Origin: an uncultured Methylococcaceae bacterium
Lineage (GTDB): Bacteria > Pseudomonadota > Gammaproteobacteria > Methylococcales > Methylomonadaceae
Length of the DNA stretch: 36,943 nt
Reading direction: 5' to 3'
NCBI GenBank assembly: GCA_903938485.1
Contig: CAJADF010000039.1
Coordinates: 1 to 36,943, forward strand
The position numbers and the translations under genes are program-made. A model generated the notes under the pieces. It saw nothing but the letters and a program-made list of their open reading frames with translations, did no database searches and had not been told where the DNA came from. This document shows positions 6,345 to 36,892 of the stretch, one piece after another; the first letter of the stretch is position 1; every line of letters starts with the position of its first letter.

Positions 6345-9300
6345 TTAGTAGGCTACGAAGTTGTCAACTCTTGCACCGTTAGGAAGTTGCATACCAACCT
6401 TGCCACCGCCTGAAGTCCACAGTGCGTTATTAGGAAGTTGCACACCTGATGGTGTTAGCAAGTTAGTCGTAGTTCCGACGACTTTCCAGACCCATACTTT
6501 GCCCGTATTGTCCACTGCTGCCAGCAGTGAATTACCGCTAGCCAGGTTGCCGCCAGTTGAGGTTGCCACACCTACAGTTGTGTAGGTTGGATTGATGGCA
6601 TTACCATTGGTGGTCGTTGCCACAGTGACGCCACCTCCACTATAGTTGACGCGAATCGCATTTTGCAATTGGTTACTGCCAAATGCGCCTCCTAATGTTC
6701 CAGTCGCTTTCAAGAATAGAGCCGTGTTGTTTATTGGAGCAGTAACGAAAGTGAAACCAGCACCTTGGTTTTCAGTTCCTACTGTAGTGGAGTAGGCATA
6801 GCCTGTAGCAAATAACAAATTAGCTGTCGCCTGATTGTTATTTATACGCAGAACAGCATTGCTCAATGTAACATTTTGCTGCCAAGTGTTACCTAGGGTA
6901 TTGGCATTAGCACGGTTGAAGTTATCTCGAACTACGCTGGGTATTGTTGGAGGAATTGCTACTACAGTCGCCGTACCCGTGCCGCTCAATGATACAGTTT
7001 GTGTACTATTGGGGACATTGTTAGAGTTATCGGTAATGGTCAATGTGCCCGAAGGAACTGTGCCTGCCACTGTCGGTGCAAAGGTTACGTTGATTGTACA
7101 GTTCGCACCAGGGTTCAACGAAGCACCACAAGTACCACCTGCTGCACCTACGGGTCTGGCAAAGGGTGCTCCGCTGGTCGCAATGCTGTTAATAGTCAAC
7201 AAACCGGCACCACTATTAGACAGCGTTGCCGTCAATGCTACACTCGTTGTATTCACCGTTGTGTTGGGGAACGCTAGTATAGCGGGTGAAACAGCAGCAA
7301 CTGGAATAATGAGTCTCGAAGCGGTATTTGACCAGTCAGAATTGGCTGTCACGTTGGCATAACCTATAAACCCAGGAACTAATGTACTTAATTCAGAAGG
7401 TAAAGTACCACCGTATGAACCATCGGGATTACGCGGTGTATCCAACTTTCCATCGCCAGCACCGACTGTGTTGTTCGCCATTACACGGTAGTATACAGAA
7501 GCATCTGCAGGCGCAGAGGTATCTATATAGGATAATAAACAACCCGATTGAAGATCACATTCTTTTTTAGAAAATACCTTACCCGTAGATGGATTAATAA
7601 GTGATTCAGTAAGAACATTGAATGAAGTCATTGTTCCGGGGGTAAAGTTTGAAGTATTTGATCTTTGAATGGTCACCCAATTGGATATAATTGAATTATC
7701 CGTCCAGTTAACGGTTACATTTGTACCTTGTCCAGTAGCCGTAGTCATTGAGGGCGCTTCCGGTGGTTGCGCTGCCGAAATTGTCCTCATCATATCGTTT
7801 TCCTCATGACCCAAGATATGACAGTGCCACAGATACTCCCAGCCGAAGTTAATAGATTTATTGGATACGTCAGATGCATTACCAGACATTGGATCTAAAT
7901 TGAATTGGTCCATAGCTACAAGTGCATTAGGAGCTAAGTTTGGCATTAGTAAACGATGGCTATTGGGCACTTTGAACGGCAGATTTGTCATGGTCATTGG
8001 GCGTAAGGCGACTATGGTGTCAGACAATGGGTGCATTTTTACTGTATCTTTCCAACCGAGTTCGTTGGCATCTGGCGGATACATTGCACCGTCCCAACCT
8101 ACACGATTAACCAATTGAACATGGAATAAGTGGAAGTGAATCGCATGGGAGTCAACACCGTTATGGGTGATTTTCCAGATTTGTGTACCATCCGTCGCCG
8201 TACCTGAAATAGGTATCATGTTGGTATTCTGGGTTATTTTCACTAATTCAGTCTGAGGATCAACATACGCCTGAGGAATCGAGACGGCTGTTAATGCAGT
8301 TGTTTTGGGTACCTCAACACCCAGCAATGCGTTCATCCGTCCCCAATTTTGAGTCCAGTCTTCAATAATTGATTTAGGTTGGAGATCGAATTTTAGTGAT
8401 CCTGTTGTTACAGGTAATTTAGTTAAAGGATCCATCGGTGTATAAGTCAGTGAAGTATCACTGATACGTGATAAGTCTTGACCTAATGCATCAGTAAATG
8501 TCGTTGCCAGCCCCGTATAGGTTTGGCTATATACCGATTGAGGAACAACGATAGGTTCTTGACTGTTTTTGAAAGCTGTCTGAACAGCAGTTGTTAAATC
8601 AGTCATGTTGATAGTACCTGTATCATCAACAGGATTAGTACCTCCCGTTCCAGTAACACGAATTTGCATCAAAGTTCTACTGTTAGGACCGTAGCCGGGT
8701 ACTACTGAAAATGCACCACCGGTATCAGTGTTGTCAAATCCACCGGTATAGTAATCTAGACGTAAATCCCATGCTGGCATAGGTGCAGGTGAGTCGTTGT
8801 ATAAGAGTAGGGTAGAGCCTGCAAAGTGAGTGAAATCCACTAAAACATCAGCACGTTCAGCTGGCCCTAATAATAATGCGTGCTCCTTAACATTACCGAT
8901 CAGAATATTTTTAGGGTTGTACTCATAGTTAACCGGTTGGTTCTTGATCACGACAGGTGATGAAAGGAATCCACCTTCGGTACCAATCTGTATCATTGCA
9001 GGACCGCGGGTTGCTGGATCAAAAACGCCAGATGGACGACCATCAAAGGTTACCCCCGCTTTTTGTTTTGTATACCACCCTGATGGAAAATGAGTAATTC
9101 CATCTTGAGCTGCATTCCAAGGTAACATTTTGACTTCGGTACAATTCTCTGCTCCAAATACCGCTTGTGTATTTAAAAGGTTAGATTGAGCGTTCTGCAA
9201 CACTGTGTTTGCAACTGTTAAAGCATTATTTGCAATAGCAAGATCTGCTAACAATGTGATATCTGTTGGTGATGCATCAGATGCAAGTTTTGCATTATTA

Positions 9301-11345
9301 ACATTTGATTGTGCATTAGTTAGGGCCGTAGTTGCATTACTCACATTACTATTTGCTGATGTAATGGCTTTTCCGTCACAGATTTGTGCAACACTTGTCG
9401 TGCCTGAATTCGCAAGTGCCGTGTTATCACTTTTTTTGCTGGCTGCAACAACCCAAGATAGATTTAACATGCGGTCGTTACCAACACTTAATATCCGGAA
9501 ACGGTATGGTTTAGGATCGACTGTCATATAAGGATAGGCTGTTCCATTAACTATCGGCGTGTCATTGAAAGCTTCTGGTGTACCGGATGGTGATTCGGTT
9601 ACTTGCCCTGTCGAATTATCTAAAACCCCCCCATTCGTTGGTTGAATATTTTTTGTAGCATCGCCACCGCTACTTACGTTTGTCAAACTACCATTAGGCA
9701 CACCTGGAATGTATGGCCCTTCGCAATAACTAGTTGTGGTATTACAGTTAGGGTCGTAGTAGGGATTGGCAATCTGTCCGTTTTGGATATTGACAAACGG
9801 AGGCCAGAACCAAGGGCCGTAATCCCAGCGTCCAACAGCATTGGCACCCGAGACATCACCTGGATTTTGGTTAGGCATGAATACATGTGGAACCCAAAGG
9901 TCACCGTTTCCATTATATACAGAGGAGATTTTACCGGTATTACCCCAGCGCCAAGTTGGATCCTGAGAATCAAGTTGCGATTTGAAAGCACCATAAAAGT
10001 TCATTACTGGAATACTGTTATTCGGTACAAAGGTTTTTTCTTGAATGACTAAGGGAATGGTATCAGCTAATGCCGGCAAGACATTGATTTGACTAGGATT
10101 ATTTCCAGAAATGTTTGTGCCATTTACAAGATCCTGCTCGGTGGGATCTTGCAATACAAATCCTGCAGCCTCCCCGTTATAAACATTTAAACGGGTCGTT
10201 CCTTCCGCATGATCATGATAGAACATCAGCCGTGCGCTTTGATCATTCGTAAAAAAGTAGGTCATTGCTCCGTCACCTGGATTATTGGTCGCACCTGATA
10301 CTGTACAGGACGGTTTAACTGCACAAGATGCAATAATATTACCACTAGTATCAAACCACATGTCGGGTACATCACGAACAGATTCGCCTTTATTTTTTCC
10401 AGCCTCACCATTTGGTTTTACCCATTGGCGAACGGTACCATCACTGATCCATGGAGTGTTACCACCGTGTAAATGCACAGCAGCACGGTTATCAGTATCA
10501 GTTGCTCCATCGGCACCCATATAGGTGGTATCCACAGGTAGCGCTAGTTTTCCACTCGCACCTGTTGGAAGTTGGTTCACAAATTTGATACGAACCGGTT
10601 GACCTTTTTTAGCTACTATTATTGGGCCGAGATAATGATTGCTTAATGCATCACTACCCGTAGGTGCATTTAGTTGTTTGTAACCGCGTAAGGTGGTTTT
10701 GGGCAGATCGCTATGGAATTGATGTTCATATTCAGACACGGCAATTTCATAGTAATCAGAACCCGGGAAGGTTGTCTTGTCAGCAACCGCTATTGGAAGT
10801 ATTTGATTTAGATTGTTGGGTGCTACTTGTGCCAAGCCTAATGGTGCAAGCGTATCTACAAACTTTCTGATACCTGAATTCAAAAGGGGTGTATCAAATG
10901 TTTCGGTCGAACAAGATAACAAATCAACACCTGGTGAGACAAAAGCCCCTGTAGAGTCAACATTGGGCAGTATTGCGCCCGTTGGAGAAATATTAGATGT
11001 TGCTTTTATTGTTGCTGAGCAACTATGGCCGGCACCATCTTTTATAGTGATCGTATCAGTTGCTAAATATCCAGTACCACCTTGTATATCCATTAAGTAT
11101 TTTGTGGGTACATCGTTGACGTAATCGTAGGTTGTAGCTGCGGCACCTGTGCCTGAGCCACCAGAAACAACCGCTAAAATGGGCGAAGGGCTATTGGCGT
11201 AGTTTGGAACGACACCGAAGTAATCGGGAATATGACCTGGTCCTGGCGGTGGGTTTTGTTGACCAACTCCAGCTAAGCTGCCAACTGCAAAAACGGCTGT
11301 TCCACTGGCAAGTAATATTTGTTGTATTGATTTAGTTAAGTTCAT
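6345..11345 (-). CDS. Giant exported multicopper oxidase (CotA/laccase-like core, MofA-sized)
   Basis: Protein of 1666 residues. It has a Sec-type signal (no twin arginine) and then PPPGPGxIPDYFGVxPN. Copper-site motifs of three-domain multicopper oxidases are present: HLHGG (291-295), YHDH with TRLNVYNG (376-390), HAIHFH (1067-1072) and HCHILGHEENDMM (1174-1186). The type 1 cysteine is C1175 and the axial methionine M1185. The core resembles CotA/bilirubin oxidase, widened from ~510 to ~1190 residues by inserts. It then carries a fibronectin-III-like domain (~1196-1340), one HYDIN-like domain (~1352-1457) and a C-terminal beta domain ending in VDNFVAY. Size and layout recall Leptothrix MofA (Mn oxidation); the substrate cannot be assigned. 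The ATG overlaps the stop of the small secreted gene (ATGA, 11342-11345). The second copy is at 31532-36892. Confidence 0.85.
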   Translation of the reverse strand: MNLTKSIQQILLASGTAVFAVGSLAGVGQQNPPPGPGHIPDYFGVVPNYANSPSPILAVVSGGSGTGAAATTYDYVNDVPTKYLMDIQGGTGYLATDTITIKDGAGHSCSATIKATSNISPTGAILPNVDSTGAFVSPGVDLLSCSTETFDTPLLNSGIRKFVDTLAPLGLAQVAPNNLNQILPIAVADKTTFPGSDYYEIAVSEYEHQFHSDLPKTTLRGYKQLNAPTGSDALSNHYLGPIIVAKKGQPVRIKFVNQLPTGASGKLALPVDTTYMGADGATDTDNRAAVHLHGGNTPWISDGTVRQWVKPNGEAGKNKGESVRDVPDMWFDTSGNIIASCAVKPSCTVSGATNNPGDGAMTYFFTNDQSARLMFYHDHAEGTTRLNVYNGEAAGFVLQDPTEQDLVNGTNISGNNPSQINVLPALADTIPLVIQEKTFVPNNSIPVMNFYGAFKSQLDSQDPTWRWGNTGKISSVYNGNGDLWVPHVFMPNQNPGDVSGANAVGRWDYGPWFWPPFVNIQNGQIANPYYDPNCNTTTSYCEGPYIPGVPNGSLTNVSSGGDATKNIQPTNGGVLDNSTGQVTESPSGTPEAFNDTPIVNGTAYPYMTVDPKPYRFRILSVGNDRMLNLSWVVAASKKSDNTALANSGTTSVAQICDGKAITSANSNVSNATTALTNAQSNVNNAKLASDASPTDITLLADLAIANNALTVANTVLQNAQSNLLNTQAVFGAENCTEVKMLPWNAAQDGITHFPSGWYTKQKAGVTFDGRPSGVFDPATRGPAMIQIGTEGGFLSSPVVIKNQPVNYEYNPKNILIGNVKEHALLLGPAERADVLVDFTHFAGSTLLLYNDSPAPMPAWDLRLDYYTGGFDNTDTGGAFSVVPGYGPNSRTLMQIRVTGTGGTNPVDDTGTINMTDLTTAVQTAFKNSQEPIVVPQSVYSQTYTGLATTFTDALGQDLSRISDTSLTYTPMDPLTKLPVTTGSLKFDLQPKSIIEDWTQNWGRMNALLGVEVPKTTALTAVSIPQAYVDPQTELVKITQNTNMIPISGTATDGTQIWKITHNGVDSHAIHFHLFHVQLVNRVGWDGAMYPPDANELGWKDTVKMHPLSDTIVALRPMTMTNLPFKVPNSHRLLMPNLAPNALVAMDQFNLDPMSGNASDVSNKSINFGWEYLWHCHILGHEENDMMRTISAAQPPEAPSMTTATGQGTNVTVNWTDNSIISNWVTIQRSNTSNFTPGTMTSFNVLTESLINPSTGKVFSKKECDLQSGCLLSYIDTSAPADASVYYRVMANNTVGAGDGKLDTPRNPDGSYGGTLPSELSTLVPGFIGYANVTANSDWSNTASRLIIPVAAVSPAILAFPNTTVNTTSVALTATLSNSGAGLLTINSIATSGAPFARPVGAAGGTCGASLNPGANCTINVTFAPTVAGTVPSGTLTITDNSNNVPNSTQTVSLSGTGTATVVAIPPTIPSVVRDNFNRANANTLGNTWQQNVTLSNAVLRINNNQATANLLFATGYAYSTTVGTENQGAGFTFVTAPINNTALFLKATGTLGGAFGSNQLQNAIRVNYSGGGVTVATTTNGNAINPTYTTVGVATSTGGNLASGNSLLAAVDNTGKVWVWKVVGTTTNLLTPSGVQLPNNALWTSGGGKVGMQLPNGARVDNFVAY

Positions 11346-11623
11346 TGTGCGCCTCTTTTACCGTTACCAGTAGTGTCTGATTGACTCTGAGCATTATTTA
11401 CTACAGAACTTTGATTCTCGAGATTATGCGTCTGTTTTAAACGTAATGCCGCTGCTTTTCGTTGTGAATGAGGTAATGTTTGCCTGCTATTTTGTGACTT
11501 GATTACGTCTGTATTATTGATTTGATTTTCATTGATTGTATTTTTTGCATTAACTGCATTTACACTCGATAACACCATAAGCGTAGTGAAATACAAACCA
11601 AATAAACGAATATTCTTATTCAT
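11342..11623 (-). CDS. Small secreted partner protein of the first multicopper oxidase
   Basis: I do not recognise a named family. It is 93 residues long: an N-terminal signal (MNKNIRLFGLYFTTLMVLSS, likely cleaved near residue 26), then an Asn/Gln-rich mature part. Residues 40-66 contain V-I-K-S-Q-N-S-R-Q and later R-K-A-A-A, and these align without gaps with residues 52-78 of the product of 31218-31535; 11 of 27 positions are identical by my count. Both end in a G-x-G...G-x-Q tail. A strong ribosome-binding site AAGGGG lies at 11631-11636. The gene overlaps the oxidase by 4 nt (ATGA), so the two are translationally coupled. Inferred role: helper, subunit or metal chaperone for the oxidase. 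Confidence 0.8.
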   Translation of the reverse strand: MNKNIRLFGLYFTTLMVLSSVNAVNAKNTINENQINNTDVIKSQNSRQTLPHSQRKAAALRLKQTHNLENQSSVVNNAQSQSDTTGNGKRGAQ

Positions 11624-15136: not shown

Positions 15137-15622
15137 TCAGTGCTTATGATTGGATTGCGCTAGCCAATAAGTATAATCCGGGTTTTGCAATAATAGTTCG
15201 GTAAACACACAAGCAACTCGAAAATGTTGCGCTGCTTCACTACTTAAACCTTCACCTAATGCAAACTTTTCTGCTTTGATACTGAGCAGAAAGCACGCAG
15301 GAGGTGTTTGGTGTTTTATCGACTCATAGACATCTAAAACCGCGGAGGGACTCATGGTATGTGTGGTATAACTCTTATCTTTATTAGCACTAAGTTTTGC
15401 AAAATTATAGGCTTGTTCACAAGATATGGACGCATCCACAAACATGACCAATGCTCTGTTTTCTAAATCCAGTGCATGTTCAATTTGTAATTGAAAGTCA
15501 CATAAAATATCGATTTGATTTAAGTCACAATGTTGCTCAATATACTCAAGTAATAATGGCCCTAAAGCATCATCTCCACGACTTAAATTCCCGTAGCCAA
15601 AAATAAGAATAGGTTTAAGCAC
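15137..15622 (-). CDS. hoxW: Hydrogenase maturation protease HoxW
   Basis: Endopeptidase of 161 residues in the HyaD/HybD/HoxW family, which removes the C-terminal extension of the [NiFe] large subunit once nickel is inserted. The N-terminal motif is GYGNLSRGDDALGP (9-22), with an acidic residue of the DD pair at 17-18 expected to read nickel occupancy. The second conserved acidic region includes D63 (FVDASIS), and HTMSP follows in the middle as in this family. It overlaps hoxH by 8 nt (15615-15622) and is the last gene of the hox operon. Its predicted substrate is the 36-residue tail of the adjacent HoxH. Assignment from motif plus context is strong. Confidence 0.88.
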   Translation of the reverse strand: MLKPILIFGYGNLSRGDDALGPLLLEYIEQHCDLNQIDILCDFQLQIEHALDLENRALVMFVDASISCEQAYNFAKLSANKDKSYTTHTMSPSAVLDVYESIKHQTPPACFLLSIKAEKFALGEGLSSEAAQHFRVACVFTELLLQNPDYTYWLAQSNHKH

Positions 15623-17117
15623 TAGCTACTCGATTAATATGACCATCGCTACCTTTGACCAACTTATCAATTAACTGACCGTCTGCGTTTATCAACTCCA
15701 GTTGCAAGGGCATTTTACCCATGGCATGAGTAGCACAAGACAAACAAGGATCATAAGCTCTAATAGCGACTTCTAAATTATTTAATAAAGGTTCGGTTAG
15801 TTCCTGACCCGATAAATATTCAGCGGCCACTTGTCTTACAGATTCGTTCATTGCCATATTGTTACTGGTTGTTGAAACGATTAAATTAGCCTTAGTGACT
15901 ATGTCGTTTTCATCCACTTGATAATGATGAAATAAGGTGCCTCTAGGCGCTTCAATAACCCCAACACCTTCATAACGCTTTTCACCTCTAGCGACCAAGT
16001 CATTGCTCATAATGTCAGAATCGTTTAACAGGGTTTTAATGCTTTCGGCGCAATGTAAGAGTTCAATTAAACGCGCCCAATGAAAAGCTAATGTACTGTG
16101 CACCATAGCGGAGTTGCCGTGGGCTTTAAATTCTACCCTCGCAGTTTCTGCTAAAGGTGTATCAATATAATCGCAGTTATTTACCCGAGCTAAGGGGCCA
16201 ACACGATACCAGCCATTTTCTTTACCTTCAGACAACAGGTAAGGGAATTTCATATAAGACCAAGACCGGACTTCTTCATGAATATAATCGTTATATTTAC
16301 AATAATCGACATGATCAATAATGGTTTCACCCTTAGCATTTTTAGCGCGAATGCCGCCATGATAAAGTTCTAACGCGCCATCGGGTTTAGTTAAACCTAA
16401 ATAATTAGTTTTTATGGTCGCAAAATCATCATAGTAGGGGAGGTTGGAGCAATGTACATTTTTAATTAAATCAACAGAAGCCGCCGACCAACTGATGATT
16501 TGTTCGATATCTTTTAATAAATAATCACGTTCTGCTTTATCTAACGATTTATTCATGCCACCAGGAATAGCGCCAGTACCATGTACGCGTTTACCAGACA
16601 CCATACGGATCACTTCTTGACCATACTTGCGTAACATAACGCCTTGTACCGCTAAATCCGGATAAGCATCAATCACGGCAATAATAGAGCGTTTGCTAAT
16701 GTCGCTTTCAAAGCCAAAAAGTAAATCGGGGCTGGATAAATGAAAAAAGTGCAAAGCATGGGATTGTAATACTTGCCCAAAATGTAATAAGCGGCGCAGT
16801 TTATCAGCGGCAACCGGAAGATTAGCTGGATCAATTCCCACCAACTGATCAATCGCTTTTGCAGCAGCAAGATGATGACTGACTGGGCAAATGCCACATA
16901 AGCGTTGCACTAAGACCGGTAGTTCCCAATAGGGTCGACCTTGAATAAAACGTTCAAAGCCTCTAAATTCAACAATATGTAAGCGAGCTTGTTTAACCTT
17001 ATTGTCTTGATCCAAGAGCAGCGTAACTTTTCCGTGTCCCTCTACGCGAGAAACAGGTTCTACCACTACGCGTTTAAGGTTTTCTTGGTTTTCAGCAGTT
17101 TCTAAATGTTCGTACAT
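15615..17117 (-). CDS. hoxH: NAD-reducing [NiFe] hydrogenase large subunit HoxH
   Basis: Catalytic subunit of 500 residues of a group 3d (bidirectional, NAD-linked) hydrogenase. Ni-Fe ligands are in RLCGIC (72-77: C74, C77) and DPCLSCATH (456-464: C458, C461). The upstream RVEGHG motif (24-29) is also intact. The precursor extends 36 residues beyond H464, the expected cleavage site for HoxW. It oxidises H2, or forms it, at the active site, passing electrons through HoxY to the HoxFU diaphorase. AGAGAA precedes the ATG as ribosome-binding site. It lies 40 nt downstream of hoxY. No residue of the active-site motifs is missing. Confidence 0.95.
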   Translation of the reverse strand: MYEHLETAENQENLKRVVVEPVSRVEGHGKVTLLLDQDNKVKQARLHIVEFRGFERFIQGRPYWELPVLVQRLCGICPVSHHLAAAKAIDQLVGIDPANLPVAADKLRRLLHFGQVLQSHALHFFHLSSPDLLFGFESDISKRSIIAVIDAYPDLAVQGVMLRKYGQEVIRMVSGKRVHGTGAIPGGMNKSLDKAERDYLLKDIEQIISWSAASVDLIKNVHCSNLPYYDDFATIKTNYLGLTKPDGALELYHGGIRAKNAKGETIIDHVDYCKYNDYIHEEVRSWSYMKFPYLLSEGKENGWYRVGPLARVNNCDYIDTPLAETARVEFKAHGNSAMVHSTLAFHWARLIELLHCAESIKTLLNDSDIMSNDLVARGEKRYEGVGVIEAPRGTLFHHYQVDENDIVTKANLIVSTTSNNMAMNESVRQVAAEYLSGQELTEPLLNNLEVAIRAYDPCLSCATHAMGKMPLQLELINADGQLIDKLVKGSDGHINRVASA

Positions 17118-17157
17118 AATTTTCTCTAATGTGATTTAGTACAACAAGACGCGTTTA

Positions 17158-17700
17158 TCAATCATAATGGACTAGATTGTAGGGTAAAGAGGGTTCTTTT
17201 CCGGCGATTAAATCAGTCAAAAATTTCCAGAATACGTCGGCAGAGGGCGGACAACCCGGTAAGAAATAATCAACTTTGACCACTTCATGAATAGGTCGAA
17301 CTTTATCTAGTAATAAAGGTAATTCTGGATCGCTGGGGATTTGAGCATTTTCAACCCCAATACCGTTAATGTAGGCTTCGTTTAGACAGTCTTCTAAAGG
17401 AATAAAATTTCGCATAGCAGGTAAACCACCATTAATCGCACAGGCACCAACTGCCACTAAAATCTTACAATTTTTTCTAAATTCTCTGAGTGTATGGACA
17501 TTTTCTGAGTTGCAAACCCCGCCTTCTATTAATCCAATATCACAGTCGGCACTACAGTGTTCAATATCGGTAATAGGTGAGCGGTCGAACACCACCACTT
17601 CAGCTAGTTCTAGAATGCGCTCATCAATATCTAAAAACGACATGTGACAACCAAAACATCCTGCTAAAGAAGTTGTGGCGACTCTAATTTTATTTGTCAT
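17158..17700 (-). CDS. hoxY: NAD-reducing hydrogenase small subunit HoxY
   Basis: Electron-transfer subunit, 180 residues when started at the ATG at 17700. A longer reading back to 17763 would only lengthen the overlap with hoxU and adds a non-conserved leader; the family begins MxNKxRVATxSLxGCFGCH. The four ligands of the proximal [4Fe-4S] cluster are C15, C18 (GCFGCHMSFLD), C87 (VGACAINGG) and C150 (PGCPPSAD). There is no long C-terminal domain for extra clusters, as expected for group 3d. It overlaps the end of hoxU by 11 nt, indicating coupling. Partner of HoxH; cytoplasmic, no Tat signal. Confidence 0.94.
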   Translation of the reverse strand: MTNKIRVATTSLAGCFGCHMSFLDIDERILELAEVVVFDRSPITDIEHCSADCDIGLIEGGVCNSENVHTLREFRKNCKILVAVGACAINGGLPAMRNFIPLEDCLNEAYINGIGVENAQIPSDPELPLLLDKVRPIHEVVKVDYFLPGCPPSADVFWKFLTDLIAGKEPSLPYNLVHYD

Positions 17701-18406
17701 GTTCAGACTCCGAATTAAGCGTGACTTGATCAATTTGCTGATGATCGTATATCCGTTTGCCAATTGGGACTTGATAAGCGGTGTGTTTAATTAAAATGGC
17801 GCCAGTAGGGCATATATGAGCGGCTTTATCGCTTGCAGACATATCAGTATCTTTTAATAACCCGGTTTCTGAATTAACGATTAAATGTTTATTAATGCCG
17901 CGGCCACTGATAGCAAATACATCTTTACCATCCTGCTCATGGCTGGCTCTTACACATAGGGTGCAAAAAATGCATCGGTTATGATCAATTAAAATTTCCT
18001 CATGCGAGGCATCCAATTCTCGGTGTGGATAAAATAACGGAAAGTGATCATCCAGCATATTTAAATGATAAGCCACGGCTTGCAACTGACAATTACCGGT
18101 TTTTTCACAAGAAGGGCAAAAGTGATTACCCTCAACAAACAGCATTTGGGTGATTTTTTGGCGATCAGCATTTAAGTCTTTAGCGTTATTGATAACTGCT
18201 TGACCATCCATTGCTGGAAACGTACACGCAGAACAGTTTCGGCCATTAACTTTTACCGTACAGAGTTTGCAACTACCATGGGGAGTAAACTCTGGGTTAT
18301 GACATAAATGCGGAATGTAAATACCCGCAGCCGTTGCGGCTTGGATGATAGTTTGACCGTCTTCAAAAGGAATAGTTACACCATCAATCGTCAGTGTTTT
18401 AGTCAT
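17690..18406 (-). CDS. hoxU: Hydrogenase diaphorase subunit HoxU
   Basis: NuoG-like iron-sulfur subunit. I start at the ATG at 18406 (238 residues): GGAGG at 18415-18419, inside the end of hoxF, is 8 nt upstream. A TTG at 18412 is the only nearby alternative. The N-terminal [2Fe-2S] ferredoxin domain has C35, C46, C49 and C61 or C58. A His-ligated cluster site follows (H95, C97, C100, C106 in HFCPSCEKTGNC), then a ferredoxin-like set (C145, C148, C151 and a later ICPTG cysteine). It carries electrons between HoxY and HoxF. The hoxF stop is 2 nt before this start and hoxU overlaps hoxY by 11 nt. Confidence 0.94.
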   Translation of the reverse strand: MTKTLTIDGVTIPFEDGQTIIQAATAAGIYIPHLCHNPEFTPHGSCKLCTVKVNGRNCSACTFPAMDGQAVINNAKDLNADRQKITQMLFVEGNHFCPSCEKTGNCQLQAVAYHLNMLDDHFPLFYPHRELDASHEEILIDHNRCIFCTLCVRASHEQDGKDVFAISGRGINKHLIVNSETGLLKDTDMSASDKAAHICPTGAILIKHTAYQVPIGKRIYDHQQIDQVTLNSESEHDK

Positions 18407-18408
18407 AA

Positions 18409-20187
18409 TCAATCCTCCAGTTGTGATAAATGCGCCGCGGCATCGTTACGATTTGCCATTTGCCTTGCTGTTTCTAATGCGGCATCTAAATCAAATCCGG
18501 GTTCATAACTTATCTTTTTTAATTGCGCTTGATAGAGTTCAGGGTAACGCGCTAGGGTTGTTAAGATGGGGTTGGCGGCTGTTTGACCTAAGCCACAATG
18601 GCTCTGAGTTTTAACTAATTGGCAAAGTTCCTCTAAAGCCACCACATCACCGGCAGAACCATGACCATTAACGATTTTATCCAGTTGATTCTTTAATAAA
18701 GAGGTCCCAACACGACAAGGGGTACAGAAACCACAACTTTCATGGGCAAAGAAGTGCGTAAAATTATTAACGATGTCTAAGATATTGCGCGTGTTATTAA
18801 AGATAATAAATGAGCCACCTGTGGCTAAATCTTCAAAAGCAATTTTTCTGGCAAACTCAGTATTTGATATAAAAGTACCGGATGGCCCCCCAATCTGAAT
18901 GCCCAACACATCTTTAGCCCCACAATCATGCAGAATAGTTTGAATAGATGTACCAAAGTCGACTTCATAAATACCGGGTTTTGCGCAATCACCACAAATG
19001 CTTAAGATTTTAGTGCCTTTTGATTTATCTGTACCCACGTTAGCAAACCACTCGCCGCCTTTAAGCGCAATTTTAGCGGCAGCCATATAGGTTTCAACAT
19101 TATTAACGACGGTGGGTTTACCTAAATAGCCGTGGGTGACTGGATAAGGCGGGCGATTTCTAGGAATCCCCATTTTTCCCTCAAGTGATTCTATTAAGGC
19201 CGATTCCTCACCACAGATATAAGCCCCAGCCCCCAAACAAATCTGTATATCAAAATTAAACCCGGCATTAATAATATTATTGCCTAATAACCCCGCTTGT
19301 TTACGCTCTGCTAAAACTGCTTTTAAAGGTGCATATAAATGTAAATATTCACCGCGTAAATATAAAAAGCCTTGTTCAGCACCAATAATAGCGGCACATA
19401 AGGTCATGCCTTCAAATACTTGATGGGCGTGTGTCGTTAATAAAACTCGATCTTTAAAAGTACCCGGTTCGCCTTCATCGGCATTACACACCACAATGCG
19501 TGCATCGGCAGTTTCTTCAGCGCAATACTGCCATTTAGTGGCGGTTTTAAAACCAGCACCACCTCGGCCACGCAGGCCAGAAATATCCAGTTCTTTTAAA
19601 GTTTCTTTAAAACCGCGTTCAAGGCCAGCGTGTAATGCTTCGCCGTGTTGTATAGCTTGACTGAGTAATAAACCCGCTTGATAAACATTGTCATTAACTG
19701 CAAATAAATCAGCCGGCCAAGCTGAGACGGGGATTTGTTGATGAATTAAGCCAGCGATCTGATCGATTTTTGCTGGCGTTAAATGGGGTAGGGCATAACC
19801 GTTTATTAATCCAGCAGGGCCCTGATCACATAAACCGGTACAAGACGTATTATCAAAACTGACTAAACCATCAGACCTAACTTCGCCTAATTTAACCTGT
19901 AAGGCTTGTTCTATATAAGCAGCAATTTGATGTTTGCCCAATAAATGATCGGTAATCGAATCGCTGATTAATAAATCATAGTGACCACGTGGGCTTAAAT
20001 GAAAGAAACTATAAAACTCGATAACCCCAATCACTTGGGTTCTTGATATACAAAGTAAAGCCGCTATCTGTTCGATAGCGGCTTTAGGTATGTGCTGGTA
20101 TTGTGCTTGAACTGCTCTAAGAACGGCTAATAAATCAGTGGCTTGATAGCCATTATTTTTTATAAGATCTTGAATAAATACCTGCAT
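18409..20187 (-). CDS. hoxF: NAD-reducing hydrogenase diaphorase subunit HoxF with fused NuoE-like N-terminus
   Basis: Subunit of 592 residues that binds FMN and NAD(H). The N-terminal ~150 residues are NuoE-like, so no separate hoxE is needed; this is the Cupriavidus-type HoxF layout. The NuoF part has the GLRGRGGAGF NAD loop (204-213), CNADEGEPGTFKDR FMN loop (234-247), GAGAYICGEESALIESLEGK (320-339) and the [4Fe-4S] cysteines C485, C488, C491 and C531. In the NuoE part only C116 and C120 remain of four [2Fe-2S] ligands; the first pair is replaced by S-D-S-I-T-D (75-80). AAAGG lies before the ATG, and a sigma70-like promoter is at 20232-20260. First gene of the operon. Confidence 0.94.
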   Translation of the reverse strand: MQVFIQDLIKNNGYQATDLLAVLRAVQAQYQHIPKAAIEQIAALLCISRTQVIGVIEFYSFFHLSPRGHYDLLISDSITDHLLGKHQIAAYIEQALQVKLGEVRSDGLVSFDNTSCTGLCDQGPAGLINGYALPHLTPAKIDQIAGLIHQQIPVSAWPADLFAVNDNVYQAGLLLSQAIQHGEALHAGLERGFKETLKELDISGLRGRGGAGFKTATKWQYCAEETADARIVVCNADEGEPGTFKDRVLLTTHAHQVFEGMTLCAAIIGAEQGFLYLRGEYLHLYAPLKAVLAERKQAGLLGNNIINAGFNFDIQICLGAGAYICGEESALIESLEGKMGIPRNRPPYPVTHGYLGKPTVVNNVETYMAAAKIALKGGEWFANVGTDKSKGTKILSICGDCAKPGIYEVDFGTSIQTILHDCGAKDVLGIQIGGPSGTFISNTEFARKIAFEDLATGGSFIIFNNTRNILDIVNNFTHFFAHESCGFCTPCRVGTSLLKNQLDKIVNGHGSAGDVVALEELCQLVKTQSHCGLGQTAANPILTTLARYPELYQAQLKKISYEPGFDLDAALETARQMANRNDAAAHLSQLED

Positions 20188-31217: not shown

Positions 31218-31535
31218 ATGAAAAAACATCACGGTTTTAAAACCAAACTGCTTGAGATGATGCTCATCATCTTAATCAGTCTTTGTGGAGGGGTGAGTTA
31301 CGCTAAATCAACTCATACTTCAACAGATTCTACTTTAAACACTCATGCGGAAGCGACTAGCCAACCGGCTGTTGTTAAATCGCGTAATGCACGTCAAAGA
31401 ATGGATGCGACAGCACGCAAAAATGCGGCTCAGCATTTTAAAGCGCATTACAAGCAAGCGCATGAGCAACATATTCTTGCGCACGCGCAAAAACACCAAG
31501 GTTTCTCTGGTAAAGGTCAAGGAGGTCTTCAATGA
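31218..31535 (+). CDS. Small secreted His-rich partner protein of the second multicopper oxidase
   Basis: No named family recognised. It has 105 residues: a signal peptide (basic MKKHHGFKTK, hydrophobic 11-25, cleavage after SYA at ~29), a Ser/Thr-rich linker, then a basic, probably helical region. Residues 52-78 (VVKSRNARQ...ARKNAAQ...) align with the partner of the first oxidase. Residues 72-93 contain six histidines (H73, 77, 82, 85, 89, 93) spaced 3-5 apart as on one face of a helix, and could bind copper or manganese. The tail is GFSGKGQGG. Ribosome-binding site GAGGGG lies at 31207-31212. It overlaps the oxidase gene by 4 nt (ATGA). Suggested role: metal delivery, folding or a small subunit; not proven. 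Confidence 0.82.
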   Translation: MKKHHGFKTKLLEMMLIILISLCGGVSYAKSTHTSTDSTLNTHAEATSQPAVVKSRNARQRMDATARKNAAQHFKAHYKQAHEQHILAHAQKHQGFSGKGQGGLQ

Positions 31536-34500
31536 TCACGAACTTAAATAAAGCTATCAAAAATATATTGATGGCGTCGAGCATGGCTGTGGTTTCTGCA
31601 AGCACGATGGCATCAGTTGGCGTACAAATTCCACCGCCAGGTCCCGGTCAAATTCCAGATTATTTTGGTGTGACACCTAACTTTGCTGAAAGTCCTTCAC
31701 CTCGATTTGTGACCGTCTCAGTGATTGATGGCGGTCCTTCGGGTGGTGGCGGTACAGGCGCGGTTTTAGCGGCGACTAACTACGATTACAACGTTGAAGT
31801 GTATACGCCTGGCGTTACTGACGTGCAAGTGGTTAATGGGGGTTCTGGCTATTCAAATGCGACATCCGTCTATTTAAACGGTGCAGCAGGCGTTACACCC
31901 GTCAGAGTAACGCCGGTTATTGTTAATGGTACGATTGTAAGTATTTTACAATTTGATCAATTTTTGCGTGATTCTGCGGGTAATTTAACAGCTACCGCTA
32001 ACCCAGCATGGGTGGGTAATAATGCGCTAACACCCTATTTACAAACGTCATCAGCGACTAAATTTAATACGCCGATTGCGGGAACAGGTATTCGTAAATT
32101 CGTGGATGCTTTACCCGGTTTAGCGTTTGTAGGTGGTGCTAAGTCATCTTATACGGGTGCTTATAACTTTGGCGGTACCGATGTTAATGGCAATGCCATT
32201 ACGGCGGGCCAAAACAACTTAGGCCAACAAATCCCACAAGCTACTGCGGATACAACGACCTTCCCGGGTTCTGATTACTATGTGATCGGTGAAGTAGAAT
32301 ATAAACAAAAGTTACATTCTGACTTACCCGCAACGCATTTACGCGGTTATGTCCAGTTAGATGCCAGCAATCGTCCTATTGGTAAGCCTCAATATTTAGG
32401 GCCTATCATTGTGGCGCAAAAAGATCGTCCCGTACGTGTTAAGTTGGTTAACTTATTATCACAAACGGCCGATGTATCCGGTGCTAAAGGTCATTTAACC
32501 GTTCCTGTCGACGTCACTTATATGGCAGCGAATGATACGTTTAACCGTACAGCCTTACATTTACACGGTGGTAACACGCCTTACATCAGTGATGGTACGC
32601 CGCGTCAATGGGTAAAACCCAAAGGTGAAGGTGTCGGATCTATGCCGGCTGATGGTAGCAATCCTACTAACCTAGGCTATAACAAAGGCGTGAGCGCGGC
32701 GAACGTCCCTGATATGTGGTTTGATGCGGCAGGTAATTTATTACCTAACAGCAGCACCTGTACGCAAGGTACGATTACCTGTACCACAGCGGGCGCAACG
32801 AATAACCCAGGTGATGGCTCATTAACGTTCTACTTTACCAACCAACAAAGTGCGCGCTTGATGTTTTATCATGACCACACGGAAGGTACGACACGTTTAA
32901 ACGTTTATGCCGGTTTAGCAGCACCGTATTTATTACAAGATCCAACGGAGCTTGATTTAATTAACGGGACTAACTTATCAGGCAATAACACGTCAGGTCT
33001 TAATGGCGCGCCTGTGCAAGTATTACCACCGTTGGCTGATACGATTCCGTTAATCATTCAAGAAAAAACTTTTGTAGCGAATGACACCATTCCAGTGCTT
33101 AACTTTTATGGTGCTTTCAAATCGCAATTAAACTCTCAAGATCCAACATGGAACTGGGGCGCATTGAAAGCGGGCTTTACTGATGGCATTCAATCTGGCA
33201 GCGTGCAAGACACGAACGGTACCGGTGATCTTTGGGTGCCACACGTGTTTATGACCAACCAAAACCCAGGTGATATTTCAGGGGCTAACAGCGTTGGGCG
33301 TTGGGATTATGGCCCATGGTTCTGGCCTCCCTTTATTGGTATTCAACACGGTCAAATCCTAAACCCTTACTACGATCCAGCGTGTAACTCAGCTAATAAC
33401 ACCATGGGGTGGTGTGAGGGTCAATGGATCCCAGGTATTCCTAACGGCAATACCATGACCAATGCAGATTTAACGGCTTTATATAACGCTATTCCTGCGG
33501 ATCCTAGCGTTTTAGCGAGCGATGTAACAGCAGCTATTGCATCACAACAAACGCTAAGCTCACCGACAGGTACACCTGAAGCGTTTAACGATACCCCCTT
33601 AGTCAATGGTACTGTGTATCCTTATGTGAATGTGGATCCAAAACCGTATCGTTTCCGTATCTTAAGTATCGCAGATGACCGCGCTATCAACTTATCATTA
33701 GTAGTGGCAGCGAGTAAAAACTCAGATACGACTGCAGCGGCTAATACGGGTACTAACAGCAGTGCGATCATGTGTGATGGTACGACTGCCGTTAATCCTG
33801 CGGATTGTACAGAAGTTAAAATGGTACCGTTTGACCGTTCTCAAGACGCTGTTTCGCCATTCCCTGCACATACGCGTGGTGACTTGCAAGATAACGGTTG
33901 GTATACCTCTCAAAAAGGTGGGGTCACATTTGACGGTCGTCCATCTGGGGTATTTGATCCTAGAACACGCGGTCCTATGATGGTACAAGTGGGTGTAGAC
34001 GGTGGTTTCTTATCATCACCGGTGCCTATTTATAACAAACCGATCAACTACGAGTACAACTTAAAGAACATTGTTGTCACTAACGTAAAAGAACACGCTT
34101 TATTATTAGGGCCTGCGGAACGTGCTGATGTGGTCGTAGACTTTAGTAACTTTGCGGGGTCGACTATCTTAATGTACAACGATGCACCCGCGGCATTACC
34201 TGCATTTGACTTACGTTTAGATTACTATACCGGTGATCCAGATAACACTGATACAGGGGGTACTTTCTCTACTGTGCCAGGTTATGGTCCTAACACACGT
34301 ACTTTATTACAAATCCGTGTTAGTAATAATGGCGGCGCTGTGGCGGCATCGGCACACCCTGATGATTTAGGGGTATACGATGACGGTACTAATACAGGCA
34401 CTGTATCGCCTACTTTAGTCAATGCTATTCAAACAGCATTTAGAAAAAGCCAAGAGCCTATTATCGTGCCACAAGCGGTGTATAACAGCACTTATGGAAA

Positions 34501-36892
34501 CAATATTATTGATACTATCGGTGGTAACTACTCACGTATTTCCGATAACCAATTAACGTTTAAACCATTAACTGATCCTGCAACAGGCGCACTAGGTACA
34601 ACACCGGTCACTGTACAATTTCAACCAAAATCAATTGTTGAAGATTGGACACAAGACTATGGTCGTATGACGGCGTTATTAGGTGTAGAGATGCCACGTA
34701 CATCAGCGGTTGTGCAAACATCAAATCCGATGAGTTACATCGATGCGCCAACTGAAATCGTAAAAATGACGCCGAATGATGCAACCCCTGTGTCAGCTCA
34801 AATGGCAGATGGTACGCAAATCTGGAAAATCACCCATAACGGTGTTGATACCCATGCGATCCATTTCCATTTATTCCACGTACAGTTAATTAACCGCGTG
34901 GGTTGGGATGGTGGTATGCGTCCGGTCGAGTTAAACGAAATGGGTTGGAAAGATATTATCCGCATGAACCCATTAGAAGATGCGATTGTTGCTTTACGTC
35001 CAAAACAAATGACAATTCCTTGGAAATTAGGTAACAGTCATCATTTATTGGATCCGACTAAAGCGGCGACTGCAGACCCTGCATTGTTCTATAACTTCAA
35101 CCCAGTATCACCGGTTCAGTCAAACGTGACCAACTTGGTGGCTAACTTCGGTTACGAGTATTTATGGCACTGTCATATCTTGGGTCATGAAGAAAATGAC
35201 ATGATGCGTCCTATTATCGTAGCGAATGAGCCTGAACAACCGACGATACAACAAGTAACCGCCGGAACAACTGGGTCTTTTGTGGTGAACTGGATTGATA
35301 ATTCAATGACCTCAAACTGGGCGAAAATAGAGCGCGCTTCTGATGCGGCCTTTACTCAAAATCTCGTGAGCTTTAATGCGGTACAAACAGAATGTGCTTC
35401 ACAAACTGGTTGTGCGAGAAGTTATACGGATAGAACAGCGCCTGCGTCAGGATCTGTTTACTACCGTGTGACCTCTATGAACACGGTAGGTGCAGGTGCA
35501 GGTCGTCAAGATATGGGCTACAACCCAGATGGTACTTATGTAGCGATGATGCCACCGGAGTTAAATAGCTTATTCCCAGGTGGTCAAGGTGGTTTTGATG
35601 GTTATGGTAACCAAACAGCAAACTCTGTGATGTCTGCAACGGTCGGTTTAACACCGGTAGCTAGCCTTCTTAACAGCACAACAGCTTTTGGTGGTCAGTT
35701 TGTAAATACGACTAGCGCGGCACAAACAGTGACTGTTAAAAACATTGGTTTACTACCTTTAGGTATTACCAGTGCACCGACGGCCTCTGCCGGTTACGCT
35801 GTGACAGCAAATAACTGTTTAGGTGTGACATTGGTGACTAACGCAACATGTACTATTAATGTCACGTTTAGACCGACTGCTGCAGGCGCTGCTAACGGTA
35901 CGTTAAGCATACCGACTAATGATTCGGCTCATAACCCATTAGTTGCGAACTTAACAGGTACAGGTACGGCACCGATAGCAAGTTTGGTCTCTTCATTAGC
36001 TTTTGGTAATGTTAATAACTTGACGACAAGTGCGGCACAAGCGATTGTGGTAAGCAACACGGGTACTGATGCATTAACATTCAGCAACATTGTGTTGAGT
36101 GGTGCTTCTTATGCTATCTCATCAACAACGTGTGCGACTGCAACCCCTGTTCCTGCGGGTGGTTTCTGTACAATCGATGTGACATTCAGTCCAACAGCGA
36201 TTGGTTCAGCGACGGGTGCGTTAACGTTAACGGATAACAGTGCTGGCGTAACCGGCTCTCGTCAAGTGGTTAACTTAAGTGGTGCAGGTGTAGCGCCTGC
36301 AGGTGTCGTTGTTCCTGGAGCAACAAGCACACCTACGGCAATAGGTGTGACTAACACAGCCTTAACACTAAACTGGACAGCACCGACTACAGGTGGAGCG
36401 GTTACGTCTTACACCGTACAACGTGCAACTAATGCAGGTTTTAGCACTGGGTTGACAACGACTACAGGCATTACGACCACTACGTTGAATGTGACTGGCT
36501 TAACACCGGGTGTGACTTATTACTTCCGAGTAGGAGCGGTGAACGCAGCGGGTAATGGTGCAAACTCAGCGACGTTAACTCAAGCGACAACTGTACCGAT
36601 TCCTGCACCCGCAGCACCTACAGGCATCACTTCCGTAGGGGGTACAACCGGTGCTCCGATTACTGCAGCTCTTAGATGGACTGCGGTGACTGGAGCGACT
36701 TCGTACGACGTGATGTGGGGTACTGCTGCACAGATAACCGCTAATACAGGGACTATCGTAAACAATGCAACGTCAGGTGGCCAAATCACCATGGCAGTTG
36801 CATCGAGAACAACGGTATCGATGAAAGTGCGCGCTGTAGGACCTGGCGGTGCTGGAGCGTGGTCTACTGTAGCGACGGCAAGAGCACAGTAA
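31532..36892 (+). CDS. Second giant exported multicopper oxidase (paralogue)
   Basis: Protein of 1786 residues, paralogous to the oxidase at 6345-11345. A Sec-type signal is followed by PPPGPGxIPDYFGVxPN. Copper motifs: HLHGG (343-347), YHDH with TRLNVYAG (446-461), HAIHFH (1108-1113) and HCHILGHEENDMM (1213-1225), with C1214 and M1224 as type 1 ligands. It has its own insert between the first two motifs, which are 103 residues apart against about 50 in CotA. After the core: fibronectin-III-like (~1233-1375), two HYDIN-like domains (~1376-1480, 1481-1587) and two more fibronectin-III-like domains (~1595-1690, ~1695-1786), whereas the paralogue has one HYDIN-like domain and a different end. 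Secreted or surface-bound metal or phenol oxidase; substrate unknown. Confidence 0.87.
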   Translation: MITNLNKAIKNILMASSMAVVSASTMASVGVQIPPPGPGQIPDYFGVTPNFAESPSPRFVTVSVIDGGPSGGGGTGAVLAATNYDYNVEVYTPGVTDVQVVNGGSGYSNATSVYLNGAAGVTPVRVTPVIVNGTIVSILQFDQFLRDSAGNLTATANPAWVGNNALTPYLQTSSATKFNTPIAGTGIRKFVDALPGLAFVGGAKSSYTGAYNFGGTDVNGNAITAGQNNLGQQIPQATADTTTFPGSDYYVIGEVEYKQKLHSDLPATHLRGYVQLDASNRPIGKPQYLGPIIVAQKDRPVRVKLVNLLSQTADVSGAKGHLTVPVDVTYMAANDTFNRTALHLHGGNTPYISDGTPRQWVKPKGEGVGSMPADGSNPTNLGYNKGVSAANVPDMWFDAAGNLLPNSSTCTQGTITCTTAGATNNPGDGSLTFYFTNQQSARLMFYHDHTEGTTRLNVYAGLAAPYLLQDPTELDLINGTNLSGNNTSGLNGAPVQVLPPLADTIPLIIQEKTFVANDTIPVLNFYGAFKSQLNSQDPTWNWGALKAGFTDGIQSGSVQDTNGTGDLWVPHVFMTNQNPGDISGANSVGRWDYGPWFWPPFIGIQHGQILNPYYDPACNSANNTMGWCEGQWIPGIPNGNTMTNADLTALYNAIPADPSVLASDVTAAIASQQTLSSPTGTPEAFNDTPLVNGTVYPYVNVDPKPYRFRILSIADDRAINLSLVVAASKNSDTTAAANTGTNSSAIMCDGTTAVNPADCTEVKMVPFDRSQDAVSPFPAHTRGDLQDNGWYTSQKGGVTFDGRPSGVFDPRTRGPMMVQVGVDGGFLSSPVPIYNKPINYEYNLKNIVVTNVKEHALLLGPAERADVVVDFSNFAGSTILMYNDAPAALPAFDLRLDYYTGDPDNTDTGGTFSTVPGYGPNTRTLLQIRVSNNGGAVAASAHPDDLGVYDDGTNTGTVSPTLVNAIQTAFRKSQEPIIVPQAVYNSTYGNNIIDTIGGNYSRISDNQLTFKPLTDPATGALGTTPVTVQFQPKSIVEDWTQDYGRMTALLGVEMPRTSAVVQTSNPMSYIDAPTEIVKMTPNDATPVSAQMADGTQIWKITHNGVDTHAIHFHLFHVQLINRVGWDGGMRPVELNEMGWKDIIRMNPLEDAIVALRPKQMTIPWKLGNSHHLLDPTKAATADPALFYNFNPVSPVQSNVTNLVANFGYEYLWHCHILGHEENDMMRPIIVANEPEQPTIQQVTAGTTGSFVVNWIDNSMTSNWAKIERASDAAFTQNLVSFNAVQTECASQTGCARSYTDRTAPASGSVYYRVTSMNTVGAGAGRQDMGYNPDGTYVAMMPPELNSLFPGGQGGFDGYGNQTANSVMSATVGLTPVASLLNSTTAFGGQFVNTTSAAQTVTVKNIGLLPLGITSAPTASAGYAVTANNCLGVTLVTNATCTINVTFRPTAAGAANGTLSIPTNDSAHNPLVANLTGTGTAPIASLVSSLAFGNVNNLTTSAAQAIVVSNTGTDALTFSNIVLSGASYAISSTTCATATPVPAGGFCTIDVTFSPTAIGSATGALTLTDNSAGVTGSRQVVNLSGAGVAPAGVVVPGATSTPTAIGVTNTALTLNWTAPTTGGAVTSYTVQRATNAGFSTGLTTTTGITTTTLNVTGLTPGVTYYFRVGAVNAAGNGANSATLTQATTVPIPAPAAPTGITSVGGTTGAPITAALRWTAVTGATSYDVMWGTAAQITANTGTIVNNATSGGQITMAVASRTTVSMKVRAVGPGGAGAWSTVATARAQ

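Follow-up and report, generated by a model that had tools for sequence, protein, structure and literature searches.

Small exported proteins encoded ahead of giant multicopper oxidases in a Methylococcaceae genome resemble an N-terminal segment of related oxidases in other phyla

Small genes and giant oxidases in the window

The window, meaning the whole stretch of DNA analysed here, comprises 36,943 nucleotides from an uncultured Methylococcaceae bacterium and carries two pairs of genes, each consisting of a small gene followed by a gene for a giant multicopper oxidase (MCO) (Table 1). Both small open reading frames (ORFs), encoding P0001 and P0002, lie where the original prediction had placed them, to which the strand is added here, and both proteins were noted by eye to begin with a signal-peptide-like segment. 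The stop codon of each small gene overlaps the ATG of the following oxidase by four bases (ATGA). The oxidases P0004 and P0003 both scored above the cut-off for Cu-oxidase_2 in the family scan, both contain a choice-of-anchor-D domain, and the copper-site motifs HLHG, FYHDH, HFHLFH, and HCHILGHE could be read in each of them. An fn3 domain was detected in P0004 (E 7e-14), while the scan listed none for P0003. Because the host genome possesses a methane/ammonia monooxygenase A-type gene (435.8 bits; cut-off 27.5) and the closest relatives of the window oxidases in the oxidase tree belong to Methylococcaceae, the host was taken for a methanotroph.

Table 1. Features of the two small gene and oxidase pairs, given as window positions
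Feature	Positions	Strand	Basis or remark
Small exported protein P0001, 105 aa, split form of the element	31218..31535	+	Signal peptide about residues 1-29, cleavage between SYA and KS (by eye)
Core helix of P0001, around R67-K-x-A-A	31404..31457	+	R67, A70, and A71 invariant in 13/13 split rows
His-rich stretch of P0001 (His 73, 77, 82, 85, 89, 93)	31434..31496	+	Variable within the family
AAGGAGG ribosome-binding site of P0004, inside the Gly-rich tail codons of P0001	31519..31525	+	Sequence read
ATGA overlap of P0004 start and P0001 stop	31532..31535	+	ORF ends
Giant multicopper oxidase P0004, 1786 aa, choice-of-anchor-D and fn3 domains	31532..36892	+	No built-in element seen
Small exported protein P0002, 93 aa, second split copy	11342..11623	-	ORF and BLASTP to P0001
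Core helix of P0002, around R55-K-A-A-A	11420..11473	-	Conserved in split alignment
AAGAGG ribosome-binding site of P0003, inside the tail codons of P0002	11352..11357	-	Sequence read
Giant multicopper oxidase P0003, 1666 aa, 48% identical to P0004	6345..11345	-	No built-in element seen

Three further features of the window were recorded. P0003 contains an insertion of about 60 residues (residues about 670-729; window 9159-9338 on the minus strand) that is absent from P0004, rich in A, N, Q, and L (NAQSNVNNAKLASDAS...), and coiled-coil-like by eye. The last 141 bases of the contig (36803-36943, from the 3' end of the P0004 gene onward) recur exactly at the ends of two other contigs of this genome, C35 and C66; this marks a branch in the assembly, and the 3' end of this oxidase gene may be present twice in the genome. 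The genes at 15137-20187 on the minus strand we take, by eye, to resemble those of an NAD-reducing bidirectional hydrogenase with its maturation protease.

The gapless alignment of P0001 and P0002 over 27 residues with 11 identities, as first reported, was reproduced, and BLASTP extended it to 54 residues, of which 17 are identical (E 1e-7 in a single comparison). The mature proteins aligned with a score of 80, compared to a maximum of 56 among shuffled sequences (0/5000 as high); with the last 12 residues removed, the score was 61 and the shuffle maximum 60 (0/5000). This gapless alignment reaches the final residue, and the statement that the linkers of the two copies differ was not borne out. 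The shared G-x-G...G-x-Q tail of the original prediction is present, but it is largely overprinted DNA in which the ribosome-binding site of the oxidase, placed a short distance ahead of its ATG, is read as protein. A purine-rich GG motif like AAGGAGG or AAGAGG was found at the same place in most of the other loci with this gene layout, and because of the ATGA overlap the last codon of the small gene must end in A. The C-terminal glycine tail, encoding as it does the ribosome-binding site and the overlap, was rejected as protein-level evidence of relationship.

Distribution of the split and fused forms

A pattern search of genome contigs gave 427 matches, 405 of which encode an oxidase relative, and the best 80 became loci L013-L092. 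A small exported ORF bearing the core lies directly before the oxidase, overlapping it or a few bases away, in 11 methanotroph or UBA6920 loci (L013-L020, L022-L024), and the same split layout was encountered in Thiodictyon (L021), in Acidobacteriota (L025, L026, L049, L065, and L072, the last with a more diverged core, RWKVA), and in L027. Among 13 aligned split members, R67, A70, and A71 (P0001 numbering) and the expected cleavage position A29 are invariant, a Leu/Phe and a Lys are nearly invariant, and all 13 mature proteins are net basic (+4 to +11). A profile of the split family was also run against 251 genomes of the order, a sample taken from a larger group. All 14 strong matches (E < 1e-6) lie directly before a giant oxidase, 13 of them with an overlap of four bases; nine belong to the profile or are identical to sequences in it, and five are new (L096, L099, L100, L101, L108). 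The RxxAA core sits in the mature N-terminal region of both window proteins, of 13/13 split alignment rows, and of 11/14 matches in the order, the other three (L096, RKASA; L099, RKVEA; L101, RQAEA) keeping R0 and A4, counted from the core Arg, and losing A3. Five places matched more weakly: L109 is a gene start truncated by a contig end, with first residues identical to those of L108; L110 is a 56-residue ORF upstream of an oxidase from another clade; and for L102-L104 no oxidase was found in the stretch read. Outside the profile matches, the G089 oxidase is preceded by a 182-residue ORF with SNSQRKAAAQCLK.

Conservation of the core in homologues had been set beforehand as the test on which the original prediction could fail, and R-K-x-A-A-x-R was found to recur upstream of giant oxidases. 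The small proteins form a real family with a conserved basic core, exported as judged by eye. Of the longer KSxNxRQ...RKxAA core first described, the RKxAAxR half recurs across phyla, while the KSxNxRQ half is mainly a feature of methanotrophs.

Other giant oxidases were accompanied by small ORFs of a different character or by none. The loci read from a second Methylococcales oxidase clade lacked both a small gene with the core and a motif inside the oxidase; the small exported ORF upstream of L123, of this clade, does not contain the core, and no split or fused element was seen for the third giant oxidase of the host genome, which belongs to the same clade (contig C134, L004-L008, open frame of 1163 residues). 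Four Geobacteraceae loci (L028, L030, L031, L169) possess a small exported basic ORF overlapping or near the oxidase and without RxxAA (RERALRSEIKARGAETRKRL in L028; K-rich in L169), and these ORFs are possibly diverged counterparts of the split element. In Nitrospirota, an exported ORF upstream of the oxidase (L092:1062-1553) carries a related motif twice in tandem (VVERDKKRYAIQKRAADRRAAELKKA and VVERDQKRYEARKRAAARRAAEMKKA).

A matching element was found as the N-terminal segment of the oxidase itself in Chloroflexota, Thermodesulfobacteriota, Actinomycetota, archaea, and others. It is placed between the signal peptide and the oxidase body, as in VTPADRQAAAERAA (L086), ITNADRKAAAARAA (L043), and TPAERQAAAERLKAAYK (L085), and the archaeal elements SERKAAAQRYKAAREEAM, ALRKKAAAHFKAMR, and MRKAAAKNFKANYN are close to the split RKNAAQHFKAHYKQ of P0001. 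Bridging sequences occur on both sides, namely split ITPASRKEAAARAA (Thiodictyon) and RITPEQRKDAARRAA (L027), and fused RKKAAAHFKAMR and RKAAAQRYKAAREEAM (archaeal) and ERQAAAERLKAAYK (L085). The N-termini of 110 loci were tallied, of which 91 are complete and 89 remained after the duplicates L171 and L174 (equal to L059 and L061) were dropped; the 19 loci with an incomplete N-terminus or boundary include five that show the motif (L032, L038, L040, L075, L083). Outside the methanotroph/Thiodictyon group, RxxAA is present in 48/77 distinct complete N-termini (300 shuffles: mean 9.0, maximum 16) and the strict motif in 37/77 (300 shuffles: mean 0.94, maximum 4), and within that group the motif was found in 0/12 of the oxidases themselves. 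It was noted that in L040 (2701-3258) the fused element lies in a frame that breaks ahead of the oxidase body, probably through an assembly frameshift.

The similarity between the two forms was also evident in profile comparisons. The core profile of the 13 split proteins finds the fused L085 at E 1.3e-6; among 48 N-termini from L025-L092, being those with a recognised boundary, four exceeded 5 bits and two exceeded 8 bits, compared to 0/960 shuffled sequences above 5 bits. Profile-profile comparison with the fused set gave a probability of 78.5% (E 1.7e-5) for the methanotroph split members and 93.7% (E 1.9e-7) for the other split members. Because the element is short and rich in Ala and Arg, such similarity taken alone is weak evidence.

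The split and fused forms exclude one another. The motif was also present in the oxidase in 0/18 split loci and in 48/71 others (Fisher exact test; p 7e-8, indicative only because the sequences are related). We placed the forms on a FastTree phylogeny of 82 oxidase bodies from which the element columns had been left out, with the classes split, fused, or neither assigned by hand from the loci read and with 10 loci of unknown state in the tree groups, including L092, dropped before counting. Fused members are scattered over most of this tree, while split members form two groups, each with support 99, one of Pseudomonadota (14 rows) and one of Acidobacteriota (5 rows), besides L027. Parsimony requires at least three changes between the split and fused states, or four when the diverged small ORFs in Geobacteraceae and the Nitrospirota locus L092 are treated as split. 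Neither form was found in at least 13 oxidases of the same family (L047, L048, L051, L052, L056, L058, L061, L069, L071, L078, L081, L090, L091), and the oxidase fold therefore does not need the element; the tree has 14 rows classed as neither, among them L074, which has a diverged small ORF nearby.

Structure, histidines and possible role of the element

The element has no convincing match in Pfam, NCBIfam, or the PDB. A Pfam scan of the fused cores returned seven families, each in 1/33 members (best E 0.026), the fused-element profile matched no solved chain in the PDB, and the NCBIfam and Pfam matches of the small proteins, including the HvfA match discussed below, were rejected, each involving one or two of 13 members at E >= 0.00099 and falling far under the cut-off where one is given. 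In AlphaFold2 models of two naturally fused oxidases the element is a helix of low confidence, at residues 22-39 of L085 with pLDDT about 37-41 (44 rows, mean 69) and at residues 13-25 of L084 with about 51-52 (71 rows, mean 83.5, pTM 0.87, body mostly > 80). Conservation in the split set is periodic as in a helix (p 0.011), placing R0, A3, A4, L/F7, and Y/H11 on one face, and no such period was detected in the fused set (p 0.24); the register of L045 may be off by one in the core alignment and in this analysis. An amphipathic helix as judged by hydrophobic moment was rejected as a property of the element, since 0/53 cores reached p < 0.1 in a set where L072 was unmatched and L016 was mis-anchored inside its signal peptide. 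The conserved positions suggest a docking face on a short basic helix.

Metal binding through a histidine-lined helix had been part of the original prediction, and the counts behind it are correct: six His lie within residues 73-93 of P0001, compared to two in P0002 (52 and 66). The six do not share a single face (R 0.37, p 0.39), and that arrangement was rejected; four of them (82, 85, 89, 93) do lie on one face (R 0.87, p 0.016), a subset chosen after looking. A copper or manganese chaperone of the oxidase, with the His-rich helix as its metal site, would fit the six His of P0001 and the face shared by four of them. The presence of five or more His in 22 residues, seen among the members read only in P0001 (six, the highest), L016, and L108 (five each), would agree with this, as would the recurrence of His at offsets -3 (9/13) and +26 (7/13) from the core Arg in methanotroph members and, in the available part of the source, the copper binding of MnxE/MnxF, accessory proteins of the Bacillus Mn oxidase (PMC5622069). 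However, the remaining members of the split alignments have at most three His per 22 residues, and the mature part contains only two in P0002, one in L017, and none in Thiodictyon L021. P0001 possesses the recurrent His at +26 and lacks that at -3, the former being the only one of its six common to more than 3/13 members, and no recurrent His was seen in the fused elements. High histidine content is found in some copies and is variable across the family rather than a family trait; some copies of the small protein may have a metal role, while a chaperone function for the family appears quite improbable.

Other explanations bear on the helix itself. The element could be a transient export or folding helper, similar to a propeptide or steric chaperone, acting during membrane crossing and copper uptake and absent from the finished enzyme. 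The fused element sits soon after the signal peptide, the split element is translated just ahead of the oxidase, and the models show a loose helix, all of which would suit a helper of this kind; however, the conserved helix face in the split set and the existence of forms joined to the oxidase chain favor a permanent part, no protease site was seen by eye, and we consider the helper rather unlikely. It is also conceivable that the split and fused helices are unrelated, with basic Ala-rich helices arising several times beside the same enzyme, given that the motif is short and of low complexity and that most single fused sequences are insignificant against the split profile. Their common place and register, the intermediate sequences, the profile-profile matches (E 1.7e-5 and 1.9e-7), and the exclusivity of the two forms make such repeated origin improbable. 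The ATGA overlap and the ribosome-binding site inside the small gene would even allow a translated leader whose sole job is to couple oxidase translation, but the signal peptide, the conserved protein core, and the matching segment fused in other phyla render this highly unlikely.

We favor, with moderate confidence, the explanation that the small proteins are the detached N-terminal element of a giant MofA/OmpB-like MCO, most likely serving as a non-covalent micro-subunit or an assembly/export helix. This is preferred over the transient helper, with which it overlaps in part, because of the conserved face in the split set as weighed against the low-confidence AlphaFold2 helix. Since the gene of the small protein overlaps or abuts that of the oxidase, the protein is probably translated and exported next to it. 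The data directly show conservation, adjacency, and the exclusivity of the two forms, while the coupling, the binding, and the role of the element are inferred. The original prediction had the basic core docking to the oxidase. The adjacency of the genes supports a tie to the oxidase, which goes beyond that proposal because oxidases of other phyla contain a matching core within their own chain; docking itself would be no more than a possibility, and the AlphaFold2 models, in which neither fused helix is placed on the oxidase with confidence, speak against a stable form of it.

Under the detached-element explanation, many lineages would carry a short basic helix with the pattern [I/V]-T-x-A-[D/E]-R-x-A-A-x-R, closely following the signal peptide and tethered to the oxidase by a linker, while in methanotrophs, Thiodictyon, some Acidobacteriota, and L027 the element would be made as a separate exported protein, detached by gene splitting. 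The conserved face (R0, A3, A4, L/F7, Y/H11) may bind the oxidase itself, or else a shared partner by which the oxidase is brought into position. A more speculative possibility, which we put forward tentatively, is that the N-terminal helix is an ancient tag by which giant cell-surface MCOs of bacteria and archaea are assembled or docked, used in cis or in trans through at least three state changes, with the separately exported form acting as a clamp that could recruit the oxidase to a surface partner or to a neighbouring oxidase molecule.

Comparison with known oxidases and accessory proteins

Among the papers listed in the literature searches, none described the element in its title or the start of its abstract, and the matches for a small partner of MofA/OmpB-type oxidases were mostly off target. 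New here is the match, at the level of sequence, between split small proteins and an N-terminal segment fused in oxidases of other phyla. Among described small exported proteins, P0001 was compared to the HvfA RiPP metallophore (NCBIfam NF050188). This identity was rejected, with E 0.013, 16.1 bits against a cut-off of 95, and a match in only 1/13 members, and P0001, in contrast to HvfA, has no Cys after the signal peptide.

The nearest solved sequence and fold to the oxidase body is CotA laccase, which has about 510 residues and, unlike the window oxidases, no giant insertions. The window oxidases are giant exported MCOs like MofA of Leptothrix and OmpB of Geobacter, and P0004 has an fn3 domain as does OmpB, according to the available part of the source (PMC5566968). 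This likeness is based on size, domains, and the Geobacteraceae relatives, which are 37-39% identical in their best segment. A role in the redox chemistry of Mn and Fe at the cell surface has been proposed for oxidases of the MofA/OmpB type, and in the available part of the same source the neighbours listed are mofB, mofC, and a copper chaperone, with no mention of a small N-terminal element (PMC5566968); unlike the loci described there, the window oxidases are preceded by a small overlapping gene. That the element is found both fused and separately encoded suggests that these oxidases have a functional part beyond the catalytic fold.

MnxE and MnxF are small proteins encoded just upstream of mnxG. 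The small proteins of the window resemble them in size and in partnering an MCO. In the available part of the source, MnxE/MnxF are two copper-binding proteins that form an E3F3 hexamer, were reported without known homologues, and are accessory proteins needed for MnxG overexpression (PMC5622069). The present findings similarly suggest which small ORF to co-express when giant oxidases of this kind resist expression, as is the case for MnxE/F with MnxG.
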